Positions 1,492 to 12,922 of a stretch of DNA of 64,000 nucleotides are shown piece after piece. The position numbers and the translations under genes are program-made. The DNA comes from Rhodospirillales bacterium (lineage in GTDB: Bacteria > Pseudomonadota > Alphaproteobacteria > Rhodospirillales > Casp-alpha2), in the NCBI GenBank assembly GCA_021775095.1, contig JAJFII010000057.1, positions 1-64,000 on the forward strand. The letters run 5' to 3'. How positions within the stretch are numbered: the first letter of the stretch is position 1; each line of letters begins with the position of its first letter. A model generated the notes under the pieces. The model was not told the DNA's origin. It worked only from the letters and a program-made list of their open reading frames with translations, and ran no database searches.

Positions 1492-2535
1492 TCAGCTGTA
1501 GCGATAGGGGCGACCGGCCTTTTCCATGGTCGCGTTGTATTTCTTAAAGATTTCCACGACCTTTGCCTTGGTCTCGGACTCGGCGGCGATCTCATCCCAG
1601 AACTCGAGGGCGGCGGCCTCGACGGTTGCCCACTCCTCATCCGGAATGGTGGTTAATTTCATTTTAGGCCCCTCCGTACGCAGCTGGGCTTCACCCCCCC
1701 AGTACCACCATTGCCGGTAATAGTGCGAGCTGTCCATGGTCAGCTTGAGCAGTTCCTGCAGATGGGCGGGAAGTTCATTATAACGGTCCATATTGGCAAA
1801 GAACGAACCGGCCCAGGCACCGGAAATGTTATTGGTCAGGAAATAATTGGTCACATCGGCCCAGCCGACCGTGTAATCCTCGGTAATACCCGACCAGGCG
1901 ATCCCGTCGAGTTCTCCGGTTTGTACAGCCACTTCAATGTCTTCCCAGGGCAGAGTTACCGGCACGACACCAAACTGGCTCAGAAAACGGCCGGCCGTGG
2001 GGAAGGTAAAGACCCGTTTGCCTTCTAAATCAGCAAGACTGTTTATTGGGTCCTTTGTCGCAAAATGGCAAGGATCCCAGGCACCGGCCGACAGATGTTT
2101 GACCCCGACCTTCGAATATTCCTGATCCCAGATTTCATTGAGGCCGTATTGATTAAACAGCACAGGGACGTCCAGGGAATAGCGACTGGCGAACGGGAAA
2201 TAACCACCAAACACGGTCACTTCCGTCGGCGATGCCATGCTGTCATCGTCCGATTGAACCGCATCGATGGTACCGTTTTGCATGGCCCGGAACAATTCAC
2301 CGGTGGGCACCAATTGATCGGCAAAAAACAACTCGATTTCCATTTCATCCTTGGCGATTTTATTAAAGCTGTCGATGGCTGGTTTAATGACATGTTCGGC
2401 CAGGGCCGGGCCGGCGTAGGTTTGCATCCGCCATTTGATTTTCGACTGGGCGTGAACGGCAGGTGCGGCCAGGGTTGAGGCGCCGGCAATGCCGGCAGCG
2501 CCAGCTGTTGTTAAAAACTTCCGTCTCGTCGTCAT
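1492..2535 (-). CDS. dctP: TRAP transporter substrate-binding protein (DctP family), Tat-exported
   Basis: 347 residues, the usual size for DctP-type solute receptors. The N-terminus MTTRRKFLTTAG followed by a hydrophobic stretch and AVHAQS is a twin-arginine signal, so the protein is probably exported folded to the periplasm. The body shows the family pattern: an early strand KIKWRMQTYAGP, the ELFRAMQNGTIDAVQ segment, and RVFTFPTAGRFLSQFGVVPV around the substrate-binding Arg region. It is the last gene of a four-gene minus-strand operon with an amidohydrolase and the dctQ/dctM membrane subunits, 71 bp after dctM, and ends at a strong terminator. The ligand is not determined by sequence; operon context suggests an N-substituted amino acid or related amide. 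Confidence 0.93.
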   Translation of the reverse strand: MTTRRKFLTTAGAAGIAGASTLAAPAVHAQSKIKWRMQTYAGPALAEHVIKPAIDSFNKIAKDEMEIELFFADQLVPTGELFRAMQNGTIDAVQSDDDSMASPTEVTVFGGYFPFASRYSLDVPVLFNQYGLNEIWDQEYSKVGVKHLSAGAWDPCHFATKDPINSLADLEGKRVFTFPTAGRFLSQFGVVPVTLPWEDIEVAVQTGELDGIAWSGITEDYTVGWADVTNYFLTNNISGAWAGSFFANMDRYNELPAHLQELLKLTMDSSHYYRQWWYWGGEAQLRTEGPKMKLTTIPDEEWATVEAAALEFWDEIAAESETKAKVVEIFKKYNATMEKAGRPYRYS

Positions 2536-2606
2536 CTTACTCTCCTTTTTGGTTGGTTGATCCTACGGGTTGTTTTTTTAATTACCTGTGTTTCCCCCGT
2601 ACTTGG

Positions 2607-3929
2607 TTACTTCCCATAGACATAGTCGGGCAGCCACAGGGCAATTTCGGGAAACGCCATAATCAAAACAAGGGCCATAAGCATTACGCAAACGAAGGGA
2701 AATATTGAGCCATAAATATCACGTAAACTGATTTCCGGTGGTGCCATCGCCCGCATTAAAAACAGATTATAACCAAACGGTGGTGTCATATAGGCAATCT
2801 GTGTGGTGATTGTATAAAGAACCCCATACCAGACCAGATCAAACCCAAGGGCGTGGACAAGGGGAACGTAAAGCGGTGCGACGATGACCAGCATGGCGGT
2901 ATCGTCCAGAAAGGTACCCATGAGCAGAAACGACAACTGCATGAGAACCAGGATCATCCACGGATCGAGTCCCAGTTGATCTGTAAACAAATTATCAATG
3001 GCCCGGACCGCTCCGAGGCCGTCAAATACCGCGCCAAAACTCAGGGCCGCCAGGATAATCCACATAAACATACACGAGATCGCCAGGGTTTGCCGGACCG
3101 AAACCTCGAGCACGGCGCGGCTCATGCGGCCTTTCGCCATGGCGGCGACAAATGCCGTCATGGCACCAATGGCAGAGCTTTCCACCAGACTGGTCCAGCC
3201 ATTGACAAACGGCACCATCATGGCCGCAAAGATGACAATCGGCAACAACCCGGCCCGCAACAATCGAAGCTTTTCCGACAGGGGAATATTGCGTTCATCG
3301 TGTGGTAACGCCGGTCCCAGTTCTGGCTGCAGTCGGCAGCGAATGACAATGTACAAAATAAACATCGCGGCCATCATCAACCCGGGAAAGACTCCGGCAA
3401 GCCACAATTGACCCACGGGTTGACGGGCAATCATGGCATACAGCACCAAAACAACCGACGGGGGTACCAATATGCCGAGCGATGATCCCGCCTGGACGAC
3501 ACCGGTCACCATGCGTTTGTCATATCCGCGCCGTAACAGTTCGGGCAGGGCAATGGTCGCGCCAATGGCCATCCCGGCAACCGACAGGCCGTTCATAGCC
3601 GAGACGAGGACCATCAAACCGATGGTGCCAATGGCCAAACCGCCGCGGATCGGGCCCATCCAGACATGAAACATTTTATACAGGTCATCGGCAATCTTTG
3701 ATTCCGACAGGATATATCCCATGAAGATAAACATCGGTAAGGTGAGCAAGGGGTACCATTTCATCAGTTTCATGGCGGACGAGAAGGGAATATTAAAACC
3801 GCCGGTTCCCCAAAGGGCCATGGCGGCAATGGCGCCAACAGCACCGATCGCGCCAAAGACCCGTTGACCGGTCATCAGCATAAGCATCATCGATGAAAAC
3901 ATCAGGATGGCGATCACTTCATAGGACAT
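2607..3929 (-). CDS. dctM: TRAP transporter large permease (DctM)
   Basis: 440 residues from the ATG at 3929, rich in long hydrophobic segments (about 11-12 helices), the normal DctM size. Recognisable family stretches include FIFMGYILSES, GAMIGATIALPE-like helices and GSSLGILVPPSVVLVLYAMI, typical of the ion-transporter superfamily permease that drives uptake with a sodium gradient. A longer upstream frame exists, but the ATG at 3929 is chosen because it overlaps the dctQ stop by one base (TGATG), a standard coupling arrangement. It partners with the small subunit encoded just upstream and the DctP receptor downstream. Confidence 0.93.
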   Translation of the reverse strand: MSYEVIAILMFSSMMLMLMTGQRVFGAIGAVGAIAAMALWGTGGFNIPFSSAMKLMKWYPLLTLPMFIFMGYILSESKIADDLYKMFHVWMGPIRGGLAIGTIGLMVLVSAMNGLSVAGMAIGATIALPELLRRGYDKRMVTGVVQAGSSLGILVPPSVVLVLYAMIARQPVGQLWLAGVFPGLMMAAMFILYIVIRCRLQPELGPALPHDERNIPLSEKLRLLRAGLLPIVIFAAMMVPFVNGWTSLVESSAIGAMTAFVAAMAKGRMSRAVLEVSVRQTLAISCMFMWIILAALSFGAVFDGLGAVRAIDNLFTDQLGLDPWMILVLMQLSFLLMGTFLDDTAMLVIVAPLYVPLVHALGFDLVWYGVLYTITTQIAYMTPPFGYNLFLMRAMAPPEISLRDIYGSIFPFVCVMLMALVLIMAFPEIALWLPDYVYGK

Positions 3930-4435
3930 CAGAGTTTTACGCCCTTTATTTTTGCCACGTCCTTGATCAGTTCCGAGATCGATTGCAGGAGCATTAAAAA
4001 TATACCAACACACATGATCACTTTGACGGGCCACATATAGGGCCGCCAGGCGGTTGGGCTGCGTTCAAAATAGGTAAACGAATAGGTCGTGCTTTCGATG
4101 CCGCCGTACAACAGCACCCCCAGGTAGAAAATCAGGAAAAGCACGGTGAACGCATCGAAGGAAGCCTTTTTGCGGTCGGACCAATTGCCATAAAACAAAT
4201 CCATGCGGACGTTTGAACCCAACTGAATGGAGTAGGGTCCGCCCAAAATGTAATAGGCGACCAAGGCGAACTGGGCGATTTCCAGGGTCCACAGCGATGG
4301 CAGGAAAAACGTCTTGGAAATGGATGACCAAATGAGAATACCCACCATGACAAATATGCCGTACATTACGCAACGCCCGAGACGGTAATTCAGACCGTCG
4401 ATCACCCGCACATAGGTTTTAAAGAACCTTGGCAT
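3929..4435 (-). CDS. dctQ: TRAP transporter small permease (DctQ)
   Basis: 168 residues with four predicted membrane helices, the standard DctQ topology: CVMYGIFVMVGILIWSS, then IAQFALVAYYILGGPYSIQLGSNVRMDLFY, then FTVLFLIFYLGVLLYGG, then MWPVKVIMCVGIFLMLL. The segment around GSNVRMDLFY is the conserved family loop. The start at 4435 lies 17 bases inside the 3' end of the preceding amidohydrolase gene, indicating translational coupling. It forms the membrane complex with DctM. Confidence 0.92.
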   Translation of the reverse strand: MPRFFKTYVRVIDGLNYRLGRCVMYGIFVMVGILIWSSISKTFFLPSLWTLEIAQFALVAYYILGGPYSIQLGSNVRMDLFYGNWSDRKKASFDAFTVLFLIFYLGVLLYGGIESTTYSFTYFERSPTAWRPYMWPVKVIMCVGIFLMLLQSISELIKDVAKIKGVKL

Positions 4436-5222
4436 GCTGATGTCCTTGTTCGATGTCAATGCCCAAACGTTGTAAGGCCTGTTGCAACGCGCCGGCAAGT
4501 ATAGTGGCAATACGGTTTTGCTGGGGGGCGGATAGCAAAAGGTCATTTTTAATTTCGACCATGACATTTAGGAGATCGTTGTCCACCCCATGGTGTCTGA
4601 GAGTATGGGTAACACCGTCCTCCTGGGCGTAGGGTTGATTACGCCGCACCTGCAGTTGCAATCCACAACCCAAGGCGCTCAGCATTTCATCGGCCAGGCG
4701 GCGATCCCTGTCATGAATAATACCGATTTCAACGTCGCGAACCTGATTGGCAAAGACCGGAGCAAAACTGTGGATGGTGACAAGTGCCCGGATCTTAGGG
4801 GTGAGGAGCGTTGTCAAGCGGTCATGGAAAGGTCGGTAGTAGGTCTCAATCCGTTGTTTCTTATCATCGCTGCTGAGATTTTGATTTCCCGGGATGTCGT
4901 ACTGTTCGCTGCGCCGAGGAATGGCATCGGCCATCTCCGGTGACCGGTTGCAATCGTACATCAGGCGCGAAATGCGGCTGGCGATCAGGGTGGCGTCGAG
5001 GCGTTTGCTCATGGCTTCGGCAACGGCACGGGCACCCGGATCCCATGCGATGTGGCTATGCTGCATTTGCCTCGACAATCCCAGTCCCCGATAAATTGCC
5101 GGAATAAAATTTGACGCATGTTCACAGACCAGCAAAACCGGCGACAGACCGGTCTGGTTTATCAGCTCTACCGGATGAAGGTCCTGGTCAGCAGAAACCT
5201 GAGAATTTGACGTCTGTTTCAC
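4419..5222 (-). CDS. N-formylglutamate amidohydrolase (FGase) family protein
   Basis: 267 residues from a GTG start at 5222, chosen because an AGGGGG Shine-Dalgarno lies six bases upstream; in-frame extensions further upstream read low-quality sequence. PVLLVCEHASNFIP near residue 30, the SRLMYDCNRSP region, and the TIHSFAP and VEIGIIHDRD segments are typical of the FGase superfamily (metal-dependent deformylases and related amidohydrolases). Family knowledge: members hydrolyse N-formyl-L-glutamate or related N-acyl amino acids to the amino acid plus acid. It is the first gene of the TRAP operon, so the likely substrate is imported. Alternatives are an N-carbamoyl or other N-acyl amino acid hydrolase. 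Cytoplasmic. Confidence 0.85.
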   Translation of the reverse strand: MKQTSNSQVSADQDLHPVELINQTGLSPVLLVCEHASNFIPAIYRGLGLSRQMQHSHIAWDPGARAVAEAMSKRLDATLIASRISRLMYDCNRSPEMADAIPRRSEQYDIPGNQNLSSDDKKQRIETYYRPFHDRLTTLLTPKIRALVTIHSFAPVFANQVRDVEIGIIHDRDRRLADEMLSALGCGLQLQVRRNQPYAQEDGVTHTLRHHGVDNDLLNVMVEIKNDLLLSAPQQNRIATILAGALQQALQRLGIDIEQGHQHAKVL

Positions 5223-5228
5223 GAATTG

Positions 5229-5237
5229 CCCCCTCTC
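5229..5237 (-). promoter_or_regulatory. Shine-Dalgarno setting the GTG start of the FGase gene
   Basis: On the minus strand GAGAGGGGG is followed by a six-base spacer and GTG at 5222. No comparable site precedes any other in-frame start. Confidence 0.7.
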
Positions 5238-5305
5238 GGAATATTTCGTGAAACGGGCCCGGTCGTCAACAGTTAATTGAAAATTTTCCTTCACACCAGA
5301 TTGAT

Positions 5306-6211
5306 ATGTTGGTATACCCGTCAAATGGGAGAATGGTTTTGTCCGCAGACAGCGATACAATAGCAGAACGATTGCATAAATTTTTCGATGTTTTGACCCG
5401 TGCCGAACGCCAGCTCGCAGATTCAATCCTAGAAAACTATCCGGTCTCCGGCCTTGGTTCCATTACCACCGTTGCCGAAAATGCCGGTGTCTCAACACCC
5501 ACCGCCGCCCGTATGGTACAAAAACTGGGCTATAAGGGGTTTCCGGAATTTCAAGCCGAACTGCGGCGCGAATTGGAAGCCAAAATTTCCAATCCGATCG
5601 CCAAACATGAAAGCTGGGCAGAAAAAGCGCCTGATGGACATATCCTGAACCGCTTTACGGATGCGGTGGTCGGCAATATCAAGCAGTCCCTGGCACAAAT
5701 GGAAACGGAAACCTTTGATCAAACCTGTGAACTTTTAGCGGATCGGGAACGGGCGGTTTATATCGTTGGCGGACGCATTACACGCGCCCTTGCCGACTAC
5801 TTTTTCCTGCATATGCAAGTGATTCGACCGGGCGTGACCCACATTCAATCGAATTCCAATACCTGGCCGCATTATTTGCTCGACGTGAGTACTGCAGATG
5901 TATTAGTGATTTTTGATGTGCGCCGGTATGAGAACAGCACTTTGAAATTGGCGGAAATGGCCGCAGAACGCGGCGCAAAAATTATTCTGTTTACCGACCA
6001 GTGGCGTTCGCCGGTCAGTAAATTTGCTGACCACTGTTTCAGCAGTCGCATCGCCGTTCCATCTGCCTGGGATTCGTCGATTGCCATCATGCTGATCCTG
6101 GAAACGGTGATTGCCAGCGTTCAGGAAGGCATGTGGACCGATACCCGGTCACGGATGGAGGCCCTCGAAGAGATGTTTGATCGCACCCGGATGTTTCGTA
6201 AATTCACCTAA
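5306..6211 (+). CDS. MurR/RpiR family transcriptional regulator (HTH + SIS domains)
   Basis: The longest frame is 301 residues; the likeliest real start is TTG at 5339 (290 residues), because GGGAGA at 5327-5332 is correctly spaced for it while the ATGs at 5306 and 5333 have no usable site. The N-terminal ~75 residues are an HTH_6 domain (ERQLADSILENYP, then STPTAARMVQKLGYKGFPEFQAELR). A SIS domain follows (AVYIVGGRITRALADYFFLHMQ, then VLVIFDVRRYENSTL). Family knowledge: SIS domains bind phosphosugars or related effectors. It stands between two catabolic TRAP operons, divergent from one and convergent with the other, and is the obvious candidate regulator of both. Confidence 0.9.
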   Translation: MLVYPSNGRMVLSADSDTIAERLHKFFDVLTRAERQLADSILENYPVSGLGSITTVAENAGVSTPTAARMVQKLGYKGFPEFQAELRRELEAKISNPIAKHESWAEKAPDGHILNRFTDAVVGNIKQSLAQMETETFDQTCELLADRERAVYIVGGRITRALADYFFLHMQVIRPGVTHIQSNSNTWPHYLLDVSTADVLVIFDVRRYENSTLKLAEMAAERGAKIILFTDQWRSPVSKFADHCFSSRIAVPSAWDSSIAIMLILETVIASVQEGMWTDTRSRMEALEEMFDRTRMFRKFT

Positions 6212-6295: not shown

Positions 6296-7726
6296 TTAAA
6301 TCATGCGACCCATACCTTTCGGTTTTGCCGGGTCAGGTTTTTCACATTTGAGAAATTTTCCGTGGCCTTCCGTGCCGCAATATTCTCCGTCTTTGACAAC
6401 ATATGTGCCCCGCGACAGGACGGTTGTTGGCCATCCCTGGACCTCGATTCCCTGGTACGGGGTATAGTCGACATTATGGTGCAAAATATCGTTTGTAATC
6501 TCAACGGTCCTGTGCGGATCCCAAATCGCAATGTCCGCATCTGCACCAACGGCTATGGTGCCCTTGCGTGGGTACAGTCCATAAATGCGAGCCGGATTGG
6601 CAGCCGTCAGTTCGACGAACCGGCGCAAATCAATGCGCCCTTTGACAACGCCTTCCGAAAACAACAGGGGCAGGCGTGTTTCGACGCCCGGAACGCCATT
6701 TGGAATCGATTTGAAGTCGGCTTTGGTGCCGCCAATTTTTTTCCCTTTTGGATCGTCAAAGCGGAACGGCGCATGGTCCGACGAAAACACCTGAAACGTA
6801 CCGTTCTCAATTCCCCGCCAGACGTCTTGCTGGCTCTCTTTGTCCCGGGGGGGCGGGCTGCATATGCATTTTGCTCCCTCAAAGTTATCCGCTTCCATGT
6901 CATCGGCAGTCAAAAACAAATACTGCGGGCAGGTTTCCGCATAAACCCGAAAACCGCGATTTTGCGCCCAGCGAATTTGTTCGATGGCCGCTTGCCCGGA
7001 AACGTGGACGATGAGAACCGGTACATCGACCAGCTCGGCCAGGGATATGGCGCGATGGGTGGCTTCACGTTCAACGATTTGCGGTCGCGACGCACCATGG
7101 AAATGGGGCGCCGTTTGGCCGGCCTGTTCCAGTTTATCTGTCAACCAGGCAATGCAGTCGGTATTCTCCGCATGGATCATCGCCATCGCACCATCGCGAC
7201 GGGCAACGGAAAGAACCTCCAATATCTCCCGGTCGTTGAGCTTCAGGGCATCGTAGGTCATGTAAATTTTGAAAGAGGTATACCCTTCTTCGATGAGCGC
7301 CGGTAATTCCTGGCCCAGAACCTGATCCGTTGTTTCGGTCACGATCAGATGAAAGGCATAGTCGACGACGGCCCGGCCTTCAGCTCTTGTGTGATAGTCA
7401 TTCACCGCATTGCGGATCGTGTCGCCTTTTTGCTGACAGGCGAAGGGTATAACCGTTGTGGTTCCGCCACAGGCTGCAGATCGGGTGCCGGTATGGAAAT
7501 CGTCGGCCATGACCGAACCATCGCCGGTTGGTTGATCCAAATGAAGGTGGGCGTCAACGCCGCCAGGCAAAACGATTTTACCCGTGGCATCAATTACTTC
7601 GTCGCCGTCGAGATTTTCTCCGAGCGCAACGATTTTACCATTGGTAATTCCGATATCGCAGGTAAAAACATCCGCTGCCGTGGCAATTTTTCCATTGCGT
7701 ATAACCATTTGGTGAACTGTCATCAT
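6296..7726 (-). CDS. hydA: dihydropyrimidinase / D-hydantoinase family cyclic amidohydrolase
   Basis: 476 residues, normal for the family. DAHLHLDQ gives the metal-binding H-x-H at about residues 60-62. FKIYMTYD provides the lysine (about 153) expected to be carboxylated and bridging the metals, with nearby Tyr. GGTTTVIPFACQ and SSDHAPF are further family signatures. Family knowledge: reversible hydrolysis of dihydropyrimidines or 5-substituted hydantoins to N-carbamoyl amino acids, cytoplasmic tetramer. It is the last gene of a six-gene minus-strand operon (dctP-dctQ-dctM-amidase-racemase-hydantoinase), 19 bp after the racemase. AAGGGAAA precedes two adjacent ATGs (7726, 7723). No dihydropyrimidine dehydrogenase is nearby, which favours hydantoin-like over uracil substrates. 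Confidence 0.92.
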   Translation of the reverse strand: MMTVHQMVIRNGKIATAADVFTCDIGITNGKIVALGENLDGDEVIDATGKIVLPGGVDAHLHLDQPTGDGSVMADDFHTGTRSAACGGTTTVIPFACQQKGDTIRNAVNDYHTRAEGRAVVDYAFHLIVTETTDQVLGQELPALIEEGYTSFKIYMTYDALKLNDREILEVLSVARRDGAMAMIHAENTDCIAWLTDKLEQAGQTAPHFHGASRPQIVEREATHRAISLAELVDVPVLIVHVSGQAAIEQIRWAQNRGFRVYAETCPQYLFLTADDMEADNFEGAKCICSPPPRDKESQQDVWRGIENGTFQVFSSDHAPFRFDDPKGKKIGGTKADFKSIPNGVPGVETRLPLLFSEGVVKGRIDLRRFVELTAANPARIYGLYPRKGTIAVGADADIAIWDPHRTVEITNDILHHNVDYTPYQGIEVQGWPTTVLSRGTYVVKDGEYCGTEGHGKFLKCEKPDPAKPKGMGRMI

Positions 7727-7745: not shown

Positions 7746-8492
7746 TTAACGGCCGTTTTCGATCAATCGAGTTAACGGCTCGGGTAATCCGGTCACGGGT
7801 TTCAGTGCCGGTTGGCGAAACGAACCGGCGATCGCCTTGCGGGGTTGCAGTGCAACCAGTCCCTCGGCAATTTTTATACTCGCTGCAACGCCCTCAACCA
7901 CGGGTACCGGAACCCGATCCCTGACTTTTGAGCCCAGGCCGGCTAGGGGAGCGCCGGCCAGTATTATGACTTCAGCACCATCTTCTTCTACCGCCCGACT
8001 GGCAAGTTCGACAAGCAGATCCTCATTTTCTTCCTGTACCAATCCGACGTCACCGACGTGGGCATCAAGCATCCGTATGCTTGCCAAGCGGCCGGCCATG
8101 CCGTGCCAGGCAATACATTCCCGGTACCAGGGTGCCAAACGAGAGGAAAATGAGACAACCGAAAAGGTGCGACCCAGGGGGCAGGCCATCAGAACCGAAG
8201 CCTCCGTCAGACCGACAACGGGGATCGCCATCAGTTCGCGAATGGCGCCGAGCCCCGGATCTCCGAATGCCGCAATAACCGCACCATCGAACTCGTTCTC
8301 ACGTTCGGCGAGGATTTCAAGTGCCGCCCGCCCCCCAATCAGCGCCTCTGCCCGGGTGGCAATATAAGGGACGCCGTATCTTGCGGTGACGATTTCGACG
8401 TCAGTCCCCTGCGCCGCCGCCGCGCGCGCAACGGCAGCAATTTTTTCGGTCACGCTTTCGGAGGTATTGGGATTGATGACCAGGAGTTTCAT
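7746..8492 (-). CDS. Asp/Glu/hydantoin racemase family protein lacking both expected catalytic cysteines
   Basis: 248 residues, the usual size of hydantoin racemases. MKLLVINPNTS at the N-terminus is the family hallmark. In characterised hydantoin and allantoin racemases two cysteines, near residues 76 and 181, act as acid/base: an ACF-x-DPG motif and a GCAGM motif. Here the corresponding stretches read AAFGDPG (Ala at 75) and LAGAPLAG (Gly at 180). The only cysteines are at about 104 and 126, outside those motifs. It lies between the amidase and hydantoinase genes. A classical two-base racemase mechanism is therefore doubtful; it may be a decarboxylase- or isomerase-like member, or a binding protein. 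Family assignment is firm, activity is not. Confidence 0.85.
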   Translation of the reverse strand: MKLLVINPNTSESVTEKIAAVARAAAAQGTDVEIVTARYGVPYIATRAEALIGGRAALEILAERENEFDGAVIAAFGDPGLGAIRELMAIPVVGLTEASVLMACPLGRTFSVVSFSSRLAPWYRECIAWHGMAGRLASIRMLDAHVGDVGLVQEENEDLLVELASRAVEEDGAEVIILAGAPLAGLGSKVRDRVPVPVVEGVAASIKIAEGLVALQPRKAIAGSFRQPALKPVTGLPEPLTRLIENGR

Positions 8493-9964: not shown

Positions 9965-11263
9965 TTAAATGCCTGACGCCAGAAATAACGAAATGGACGG
10001 AAAAAAAGTTACCAAAAGGATCACAACGGCTTCGCAAAGGACAAAAGGTAGCGCCCATTTGGCCGCTGTTTCGAACGGCACATTCCCAATTCTGGCGGCC
10101 AGAAATAATCCAACCCCGACCGGTGGTGTTAAATGCGCCATGGATAGATTAACCGTCATGATGGCACCAAAATGAATCAGGTCGACGCCGGCACCAACCA
10201 GAGCCGGTTTGACCAGGGGGACCAAAAGATACATGGCGGCGATGGGCTCCAGAAATGCACCGGAAATGATCAACAATCCATTGATAATCAACAACATCAA
10301 ATTCGAATTGCCGCCAGACCATTCCGTAAGATTACCGGTTATTATTGCCGCCAACCCCTGGGTCTGCCAGATCCAGGCAAACACCGATGAACAGGCAATG
10401 ATCAAGACAATAACACCGATGGTTTTGCCGGCCTCAAACAGCAGATCGGGGTAATTATTCAGTCCGATTTTTTGATATATGAACTGGTCGACGAGAAAAA
10501 TATACACCACCGCCACCGCTGCGGCTTCCGTTGCCGTAAAAATGCCGGAATAAATCCCGCCGAGAATAATCACCGGCGCCATTAACCCCCAAAACGCGTC
10601 TTTCAGGGCGCCGAAAAAAGAACTCAAGGTGCGTTCAACGGCTTGACCACGATAGCCGTTACGTCTTGATATGAAATAAATACAGGTGCCCAGCACCACA
10701 AACATCAATAATCCCGGGCCGATGCCGGCAAAAAACAATTTCGGGATCGATTGTTCTGTAATGACACCATAAATAATCATGCCAATGCTCGGTGGTATGA
10801 CAACGCCGAAGGTGCAGCCGGCCGCAACAACGGCCACAGCGAAAGGCCTTGGGTATCCGACATTGGCCATCGCCGGAATTAAAAAACTAAGCGCTGCAAC
10901 CGTCGCGATGTTTGATCCAGACATCGAGCTGATAATGGCACCGGTCAAGAGGGTTGCGAGGGCCAGGCCGCCGGGCAATTGACCGAGCACAATTTGTGAT
11001 AGGTTAACAATTCGTTGTGACATGCCGGAACGGGTAATCATTGCACCGGCAATGATAAAAAGCGGTGTCGCGAGCAGTGGGAACTTGTCGAGGGAGCCGC
11101 CCAGAATGTAAGGCACAACGGTCAGTGGGGCCGCGTCCAGCACGACGATTGTGAACAAAGCAGCCAAACCGAGGGAGGCAAAAACCGGCATGTTGAGCAG
11201 CAACAAACCGATAAAAACGGTAAACCCGATTATGCTTGGATTACTCAGAGTTTCCATTGCCAA
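9965..11263 (-). CDS. dctM: TRAP transporter large permease (DctM), second system
   Basis: 432 residues, about 12 hydrophobic helices. Family stretches include FPLLATPLFIIAGAMI, GAIISSMSGSNIATVAALS and GCTFGVVIPPSIGMIIYGVI. It is distinct in sequence from the large permease at 2607-3929. It is preceded seven bases upstream by dctQ and followed immediately by the amidase. Together with dctQ (11271) and dctP (11930) it forms a complete second TRAP system feeding the amidase/hydantoinase enzymes. Met-1 (11263) and Met-3 are both possible starts. Confidence 0.93.
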   Translation of the reverse strand: MAMETLSNPSIIGFTVFIGLLLLNMPVFASLGLAALFTIVVLDAAPLTVVPYILGGSLDKFPLLATPLFIIAGAMITRSGMSQRIVNLSQIVLGQLPGGLALATLLTGAIISSMSGSNIATVAALSFLIPAMANVGYPRPFAVAVVAAGCTFGVVIPPSIGMIIYGVITEQSIPKLFFAGIGPGLLMFVVLGTCIYFISRRNGYRGQAVERTLSSFFGALKDAFWGLMAPVIILGGIYSGIFTATEAAAVAVVYIFLVDQFIYQKIGLNNYPDLLFEAGKTIGVIVLIIACSSVFAWIWQTQGLAAIITGNLTEWSGGNSNLMLLIINGLLIISGAFLEPIAAMYLLVPLVKPALVGAGVDLIHFGAIMTVNLSMAHLTPPVGVGLFLAARIGNVPFETAAKWALPFVLCEAVVILLVTFFPSISLFLASGI

Positions 11264-11270
11264 CCATCCC

Positions 11271-11822
11271 CTAGGTGTCTTGGTTTAGGGGTTCGACGGA
11301 CGGCAGTTCGGGTTTGAATGCGCCCAGGAAAAACCCCTGAATACAGCGAATGGCGCCAACCAGGAAGGCCAACATCATGCCGAAATTAATGGTCCAGACG
11401 GGAATTTCCGTCGTCGTGCTGATTTGACCGCTGTCAAAGGACTTGAGGGTTGAGACACCGGTCATAAACACCAGATAGGACATAAAAATAAGGACACCGG
11501 CAGCGACAAATATCTCGATGAACCGGCGCCCGCGGGGGCCAAAACGATTGACGATCAAGGGGATGCCACCGTGCTCGCCGGTTCGAAAGGCCGATGACGC
11601 GCCCAGCAGGGCCCCCCAGACAAATAAAAAGCGGGCCAGCTCCTCTGTAAAAGCGATGGAATAATGAAAAACAAATCGCGACAACACACCGGAAAAGATA
11701 AGGACCACAATCGCCAACAGAAAAACAACAACAATGGATTTTTCTAGGGTATCGAAACCCAAACTTAAAAACCGTAGGGCCGTGCTAATAGAATGGGGCG
11801 CTTTATGATTGGCCATCATCAT
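11271..11822 (-). CDS. dctQ: TRAP transporter small permease (DctQ), second system
   Basis: 183 residues with four membrane segments (IVVVFLLAIVVLIFSGVLSR, then FLFVWGALLGASSAF, then IFVAAGVLIFMSYLVFMTG, then FGMMLAFLVGAIRC) and the family motif around TEELARFLFVWGALLGAS. It is located between dctP (107 bp upstream) and dctM (7 bp downstream) on the minus strand. Three consecutive ATG codons make the exact start uncertain by two residues. Confidence 0.92.
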   Translation of the reverse strand: MMMANHKAPHSISTALRFLSLGFDTLEKSIVVVFLLAIVVLIFSGVLSRFVFHYSIAFTEELARFLFVWGALLGASSAFRTGEHGGIPLIVNRFGPRGRRFIEIFVAAGVLIFMSYLVFMTGVSTLKSFDSGQISTTTEIPVWTINFGMMLAFLVGAIRCIQGFFLGAFKPELPSVEPLNQDT

Positions 11823-11929: not shown

Positions 11930-12922
11930 CTATTTGCTGAGTGCTTGGACTTCGCTTTCGACGCGGGAAACGAGGTCGGCCCCGACTTTGTTTTTAAATT
12001 CATCATAAACCGGCTTGGCAATGGTTTTAAACTGGTTCAACTCGCTGGCATTTGGGACGTAGATCTTTGACCCCGCCGCCGTCATTTTGGATAGATAGGT
12101 GCCGTTTTCCTCCAATGCCGTCGCCCGTTGCGCAACCATTCCCTCAACGGCAGCCTGTTTGATGATCGATTGGTCCGTATCGCTGAGCTGATCCAGCATT
12201 GATTTGTTGGCAATCATCCCGACGGATTCAAAGGAAAAGTTTATAATCGACGTGTAAGGAGCGACCTCGTAGAAACGTTTTGCATAAATCAGCGGTGTTG
12301 TTGCCACACCGCCATCTATGGCTCCCGATTGTAAGGACGAGAAAATTTCGGCAAAACTGATGGGTGTCGGCACGGCACCAACCTTGTTCCAGGTTTTGAC
12401 GAATATCGGATTTCCGGGAACACGGATTTTAACACCGTTTATGGCATCGGGAGTTTTGATCGGACCTGTTTTGGAATACAACTGAAAGAACCCGCCATCG
12501 CCCCATGCCAGCGCCTGCAGGCCGACTTTATTTAAGCTGTTTGACAGTTGAACACCGGTTGGGCCGTCCATCACTTTCATCGCGACTTCGGCGTTGGGAA
12601 ATATCCACGGCATGGCGGTAACCAAAAAGTCCTGGTTCAATTGTGACAGCCAAATGGTTGTTTTCATAATAATGTCGATGGCACCGGCCTGTGCCATTTC
12701 CAGTTCAACGCGGTCATTGCCGCTGGCCAGCACGCCGTTCGGATAAATCTCAACCTTGTGAGCGGTTTTCGCCTCAACAATTTCCTTGAACTTATTCGCT
12801 GCGACCAACCAGTTTGATGTTTCCGGGACCGTCGTACTGATCTTAATCGTTTTGGCCATCGCCGTACTGGCGAACGCGGCGACAACCAGTGACAAAAGTC
12901 CCATTCTAAATTTGCGCATCAT
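11930..12922 (-). CDS. dctP: TRAP transporter substrate-binding protein (DctP), Sec-exported
   Basis: 330 residues. A Sec signal peptide (basic MMRKFRMG, then LLSLVVAAFASTAMA, cleavage after AMA) targets it to the periplasm. The DctP fold is shown by IYPNGVLASGNDRVELEMAQAGAIDI and by IRVPGNPIFVKTWNKVGAVPTPISFAEIFSSLQSG-type segments; the conserved Arg of KIRVPG is the expected carboxylate contact. It is first in the operon dctP-dctQ-dctM-amidase-racemase-hydantoinase, so the ligand probably carries a carboxylate and a cyclic or acyclic amide. Unlike the other receptor (1492-2535) it has no twin-arginine signal. Confidence 0.93.
   Translation of the reverse strand: MMRKFRMGLLSLVVAAFASTAMAKTIKISTTVPETSNWLVAANKFKEIVEAKTAHKVEIYPNGVLASGNDRVELEMAQAGAIDIIMKTTIWLSQLNQDFLVTAMPWIFPNAEVAMKVMDGPTGVQLSNSLNKVGLQALAWGDGGFFQLYSKTGPIKTPDAINGVKIRVPGNPIFVKTWNKVGAVPTPISFAEIFSSLQSGAIDGGVATTPLIYAKRFYEVAPYTSIINFSFESVGMIANKSMLDQLSDTDQSIIKQAAVEGMVAQRATALEENGTYLSKMTAAGSKIYVPNASELNQFKTIAKPVYDEFKNKVGADLVSRVESEVQALSK

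Follow-up and report, generated by a model that had tools for sequence, protein, structure and literature searches.

A hydantoin racemase homolog without catalytic cysteines

The known enzymes of the hydantoin/allantoin racemase family hold the substrate between a pair of thiols and pass a proton from one to the other, and the locus described here raises the question of what a member of this family does when both thiols are gone. Within the window (the whole 64,000-nucleotide stretch of Rhodospirillales DNA that was analyzed), an open reading frame on the minus strand (7746..8492) runs from an ATG start to a stop and codes for 248 residues. In a Pfam profile search, the only family to reach E 0.001 was PF01177 (Asp/Glu/Hydantoin racemase), which matched residues 3-207, the full domain, above its gathering score (E = 1.1e-43; 149.9 bits against a cut-off of 31); the NCBIfam profile search assigned the protein to no family. 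The AlphaFold2 model (mean pLDDT 92.2, pTM 0.90) has the pseudo-symmetric two-domain racemase fold (Z 26.0 to 2eq5), and its top structural matches are the Klebsiella allantoin racemase entries 3qvk/3qvj (Z 34.2, rmsd 1.8, 243 aligned residues), followed by 5lg5, the allantoin racemase AllR (Z 34.0); lower scores were obtained for OpaE, maleate isomerase, and arylmalonate decarboxylase (AMDase). The nearest PDB sequences found by phmmer were Klebsiella allantoin racemase (3qvk/3qvl, 3qvj) and Pseudomonas fluorescens allantoin racemase (5lfd). By sequence and fold, the protein is a PF01177 member.

The preliminary description had proposed that both catalytic cysteines are replaced, by Ala75 and Gly180, and had called for an alignment with solved racemases. 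That alignment bears the proposal out. With phmmer, the match to 3qvk/3qvj is ungapped around both sites and places A75 and G180 on the catalytic positions: IAAFGDPG corresponds to IACFGDPG in 3qvj and IASFGDPG in 3qvk (serine at position 79), and LAGAPLA to LGCGGMA or LGSGGMA in the Klebsiella entries, of which 3qvk/3qvl carry serines at both sites. In the structural alignment (Z 34.2 to 3qvk), model residues 1..243 correspond to residues 4..247 of the 3qvk chain with a one-residue insertion near residue 59, so that Ala75 equals Cys79 and Gly180 equals Cys184 of the Klebsiella enzyme. The codons, read directly on the minus strand, are GCA for Ala75 (8268..8270) and GGC for Gly180 (7953..7955). 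An invariant aspartate, Asp78 (GAT, 8259..8261, minus strand), aligns with Glu78 of AllR and is a candidate base.

The proposal would have failed if Cys104 or Cys126 occupied the active site instead. Both columns vary among 35 close relatives (C 26, A 6, and one each of S, Y, and N at Cys104; C 25 at Cys126, the remainder being I, T, A, L, V, or M), and thus neither is an essential catalytic residue; no other cysteine column is common to more than 15 of the 35, and a replacement cysteine in the active site can be ruled out. With Ala75, Gly180, and no conserved substitute cysteine, the protein falls outside the two-cysteine definition of hydantoin/allantoin racemases (EC 5.1.99.x), and racemase names on this branch are therefore unsupported. 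It likewise has neither the AllR-type pattern (Gly75, Glu78, Cys180, here Ala75, Asp78, Gly180) nor that of AMDase (PF17645 plus a single Cys188), since it matches PF01177 only and has Gly180 at the Cys188 site. Having lost both cysteines, it cannot use the two-thiol mechanism, and, judged from these alignments, it does not carry out the textbook reaction of the two-cysteine racemases.

The rest of the protein resembles Klebsiella pneumoniae HpxA/KpAllR (3qvj, 3qvk, 3qvl) in fold (Z 34.2), length, and sequence (35% identity), and the two have in common the N-terminal NPNTS motif, the FGDPG loop, Asp78, and a pocket asparagine (Asn12 = Asn9). However, the view that the remaining motifs are normal holds only in part. 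Besides Ala75/Gly180 in place of Cys79/Cys184, the window protein has Ser114/Phe115 where KpAllR has Thr118/Thr119, both reported to hydrogen-bond the substrate (PMC12661438), and its residues Tyr43, Arg47, and Trp122, which are group specific, are absent from the Klebsiella protein.

The Ala/Gly subfamily

Homologs were gathered from GTDB genomes, the window's own genome, its relatives, class, and phylum, and plasmids, giving an alignment of 193 sequences, two PDB rows included. At the two sites, the residue pairs were CC (70), TS (55), AG (43), CG (11), VG (5), GC (3), SS (2, one of them the mutant 3qvk), and IG, MG, CS, and CE (one each), counts that are not population frequencies, since relatives were sampled by similarity to the window protein. 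A quick IQ-TREE phylogeny of 121 rows, with both trait columns masked, SH-aLRT support only, no inferred root, and some joins left open, separated the 60 CC, GC, TS, CS, and CE rows from every Gly180 row (support 99). The 61 rows on the Gly180 side (AG 43, CG 11, VG 5, MG 1, IG 1) all have glycine at the second site; the first is occupied by Cys, Ala, Val, Met, or Ile. The simplest reading of this pattern would be that the second cysteine was lost once and the first then more than once.

The window protein falls in a set of 24 rows that are all AG (support 98), nested within a less well supported AG group of 35 rows (86). This group, drawn from alpha-, beta-, and gammaproteobacteria and Arthrobacter, is Ala/Gly in all 35 sequences, which answers the earlier suggestion to look for further members with these residues. 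Ala75, Asp78, Gly180, Pro182, and Gly185 are invariant (35/35), and Tyr43 (34 of 34 covering rows), Arg47 (32/34), Trp122 (34/35), and Leu183 (34/35) nearly so. Tyr43 and Arg47, in the YIATR signature of the loop after strand 2 in the AlphaFold2 model (8352..8366, minus strand), are common to the AG and Cys75/Gly180 groups and missing from Cys/Cys proteins, whereas Trp122 (8127..8129, minus strand) and Pro182 are specific to the AG group, of which a GAPLxGL loop is also characteristic. Asp78 is not group specific, being present in 68 of 70 Cys/Cys proteins as well. The window protein carries the whole set (Ala75, Gly180, Asp78, Tyr43, Arg47, Trp122, and the GAPL loop, together with the gene neighbors described below) and is a member of a bacterial Ala/Gly subfamily that is both old and well conserved.

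Nine pairs of sequences, eight of them from the AG group, gave dN/dS values of 0.03-0.23 (NG86), indicating purifying selection. Clade-wide Ala/Gly conservation and low dN/dS together rule out a sequencing error or a decaying gene, and on the sequence evidence the Ala/Gly state is a hallmark of the whole subfamily rather than a flaw of one gene. In the Chthonobacter copy (L002, around 6001-6040), a stop in the N-terminal part breaks the matching frame, which suggests a pseudogene or else a frameshift introduced by sequencing. Literature searches returned no paper on a fully cysteine-free hydantoin racemase homolog, which is weak evidence of novelty given that subscription papers were thinly covered. 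A search of phages for homologs gave three distant matches only (best 32% identity) and no sign of a phage role.

Other branches of the alignment differ at the same two sites. The Cys/Gly sister group (L142, L144, L146, L147, L150, L153, L156, L157, L158) reads ACFGDPG ... GAGLAGL, often with a TGG loop, and is the mirror image of arylmalonate decarboxylase (Gly74/Cys188); HydA is rare in its flanks. A second sister group combines Val, Met, or Ile with Gly (L091, L145, L148, L149, L155, L159, L169), has D-T/S where D-P is usual after the first site, and is accompanied by a PuuE-like polysaccharide-deacetylase-family gene in four of seven fetched flanks. A distant PF01177 branch, mostly from Alphaproteobacteria, carries Thr at the first site and Ser at the second (DTMSD ... 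LGSTTM), and its members often lie side by side as pairs of paralogs (L042, L049-L052, L054-L057, L059, L061-L063, L065, L068, L069, L075).

Gene neighborhood

As stated in the preliminary description, the gene lies between an amidase and a hydantoinase gene, all on the minus strand. The next gene upstream codes for an amidase-signature enzyme (Pfam PF01425; 8549..9964), and the next downstream, after a gap of 19 bp, for a dihydropyrimidinase/D-hydantoinase (HydA; 6296..7726; 804.6 bits to NF009941, and above the cut-off of TIGR02033). Beyond the amidase, on the same strand, lie genes of a TRAP transporter: the large permease DctM (9965..11263, profile match), a DctQ-like small permease ORF (11271..11822), placed by its position and homologous to the annotated small permease of a Defluviimonas locus, and the solute-binding protein DctP (11930..12922, profile matches). 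On the other side, past HydA, the window has an RpiR-type regulator gene (5306-6211, plus strand) that converges with HydA. An N-formylglutamate-amidohydrolase-family gene (4419-5426), whose TTG start overlaps that regulator, and another set of TRAP transporter genes (1492-4567) are also found there.

This neighborhood recurs. Of 31 AG loci, 24 have HydA, 21 have an AMDase-like gene, 28 have one or the other, and 12 have an amidase; HydA was absent from seven loci, a few of them short contigs, and the AMDase-like gene was missing from the flank in ten. A HydA or AMDase-like neighbor was far more frequent at AG loci (28/31) than at Cys/Gly (1/9), Val/Gly (2/7), or Cys/Cys loci (4/23), the last count being somewhat lowered by shorter flanks (about 2-6 kb). 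The transporters at AG loci vary (TRAP, MFS, and ABC types), and GntR-type regulators are frequent. For the AMDase-like protein that recurs at these loci, profile searches gave a match to PF17645 (E 1e-18 to 1e-21) and a weak one to EutA (74.7-99 bits, under the cut-off of 318); its first site reads GTS and its second CTN, so that it keeps one cysteine, as in AMDase.

We considered whether the AG protein might form a hetero-pair with a close, cysteine-containing paralog and rejected this, because the usual racemase-like neighbor is the PF17645/EutA-like protein and not a Cys/Cys hydantoin racemase; tandem PF01177 partners were found in only a few loci. One such tandem (L140, 1489-2244 and 2248-2994) joins a cysteine-less member to a Gly/Cys member, and others (L127 and L168; L141) join a cysteine-less member to a second, divergent Ala/Gly member.

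The genome of the window has an intact AMDase-like protein on a separate contig (C33), 61% identical to a Paraburkholderia one, next to genes for an amidase, a TRAP transporter, a 2-keto-4-pentenoate-hydratase-like protein, and a GntR regulator. Since another locus (L177) holds an AG gene, HydA, and genes similar to this set all in one place, the window genome probably carries the same cassette split over two places. On the Klebsiella oxytoca plasmid pIron_OXY (L123), typed as mobilizable, an AG-type gene is found with HydA, an AMDase-like gene, an ABC transporter, and a GntR gene; as an enterobacterial plasmid of this kind carries the cassette, it may move between classes.

No carbamoylase was annotated within 8 kb in the seven annotated AG-bearing loci examined, so that a simple route from hydantoin to amino acid is less obvious and a step after ring opening is unaccounted for. 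Nor was such a family recognized among the recurrent neighbor clusters, only part of which were covered by Pfam annotation. The AG protein might catalyze a different class of reaction on a pathway intermediate, such as a decarboxylation, a lyase, or a hydrolytic step. AMDase and maleate isomerase did diverge from racemases within this superfamily, and AMDase (Gly74/Cys188; PMC4996985) combines one of the two cysteines with a changed reaction. However, AMDase needs Cys188 as its sole proton donor (PMC4996985), whereas the window protein, of PF01177 and not PF17645, has neither cysteine, and no specific residue set backs any named reaction. We consider this explanation very unlikely.

Pocket conservation and proposed function

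Conservation in the AG group is concentrated where a ligand would bind. With the active-site face taken as the loops at the C-terminal strand ends (loop boundaries assigned by hand from predicted secondary structure), 22 of its 68 positions had near-zero entropy (n = 34), compared with 12 of the 148 other positions (odds ratio 5.4, p = 1.4e-5). Together with purifying selection, this favors a pocket retained for a ligand, and probably a catalytic one, although the same conservation would also fit a protein that binds its ligand without catalysis. Such a non-catalytic homolog could bind a pathway metabolite or another enzyme, as a regulator, as a chaperone, or by carrying a labile ring-opened product. 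The dyad has lost its two acid/base residues, Gly180 extends across the whole 61-row branch, and in 21 of the 31 loci the chemistry could fall to the AMDase-like partner with its one cysteine. But the most invariant positions lie in the active-site-face loops and include the new ionizable residues Tyr43 and Arg47, and ten loci lack a flanking AMDase-like gene, even if the window genome has one elsewhere. On balance we regard a purely binding role as somewhat unlikely. The earlier suggestion of a changed reaction or a non-catalytic role is consistent with all our results, which cannot separate its two halves.

Loss of a cysteine does not in itself mean loss of racemase activity. AllR of P. fluorescens (5lfd, 5lg5; fold Z 34.0) also lacks the first cysteine (Gly75) and has an acidic residue at 78; according to work ascribed to Cendron et al. 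in 2016, it is reportedly an active racemase in which Glu78 stands in for the missing cysteine. The AG protein might then be a true hydantoin-type racemase or epimerase that carries out the HyuA/AllR reaction with non-cysteine bases swapped in, as could be expected of a gene that adjoins a hydantoinase in the window and is accompanied by HydA in 24 of 31 loci, and the C5-H of hydantoin is unusually acidic. Yet AllR retains Cys180 and has Glu78, whereas the window protein has Gly180 and Asp78, and no candidate for a second acid/base was identified on its Gly180 side. Furthermore, Thr119 of KpAllR, which is reported to hydrogen-bond the substrate (PMC12661438), is replaced by Phe115. Hydantoin/allantoin-type epimerases such as OpaE and NozR show that the subfamily has spread to other substrates, but OpaE depends on a cysteine dyad (Cys90/Cys199) that the window protein lacks, and serine at either position left 4.8% or at most 0.3% of its activity (PMC12661438). 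We find a racemase with swapped bases unlikely.

Over these three rivals we favor, with about even confidence, a thiol-free, one-sided reaction whose substrate is a compound of the cassette pathway with an acidic C-H. What the cassette takes up would be a small cyclic ureide or imide or a precursor of one; the dihydropyrimidinase-type hydrolase would open the ring, and the amidase and/or the single-cysteine AMDase/EutA-like protein would process the ring-opened products. The window protein would retain its ligand pocket and act without thiols on a C-H-acidic compound of the pathway; the likeliest acid/base is Asp78, and Tyr43 and Arg47 are putative ligand contacts. An aspartate at the position of Glu78 in AllR makes a base on one face plausible, and if no more than one face has a base, proton transfer would be one sided and not a classical two-thiol racemization, for example epimerization at a ring C-H that is acidic to begin with, or some other step of the enolate type. 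Counting against a base role for Asp78, aspartate is shorter than the glutamate of AllR, and its presence in nearly all Cys/Cys relatives means that its conservation may be structural.

More tentatively, and with somewhat less than even confidence, we propose that the AG group may be an undescribed subfamily that performs cofactor-free carbanion chemistry on the Asp/Glu racemase fold without a catalytic thiol and supplies the missing step of a widespread bacterial pathway for a natural cyclic ureide or imide. If the AG proteins are enzymes, carbanion chemistry in this fold needs no cysteine at all, and Cys/Cys, Gly/Cys, Cys/Gly, Val/Gly, and Ala/Gly form a natural series in which to test how a two-base racemase can become something different. 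The repeatedly found cassette of hydantoinase, AMDase-like protein, transporter, and GntR regulator bears on the old question of the natural role of bacterial D-hydantoinases. Public records name such proteins "aspartate/glutamate racemase family" or "Asp/Glu/hydantoin racemase", and a two-thiol label is unsafe for the whole branch.

The window's own genome has three further Ala/Gly homologs, L082, L083, and L084, on contigs C34, C13, and C69, respectively. In L083 and L084, Asp78 is absent from the aligned place (AFCHG and AFVPV), as would be expected if these two copies had another function or a non-catalytic one.
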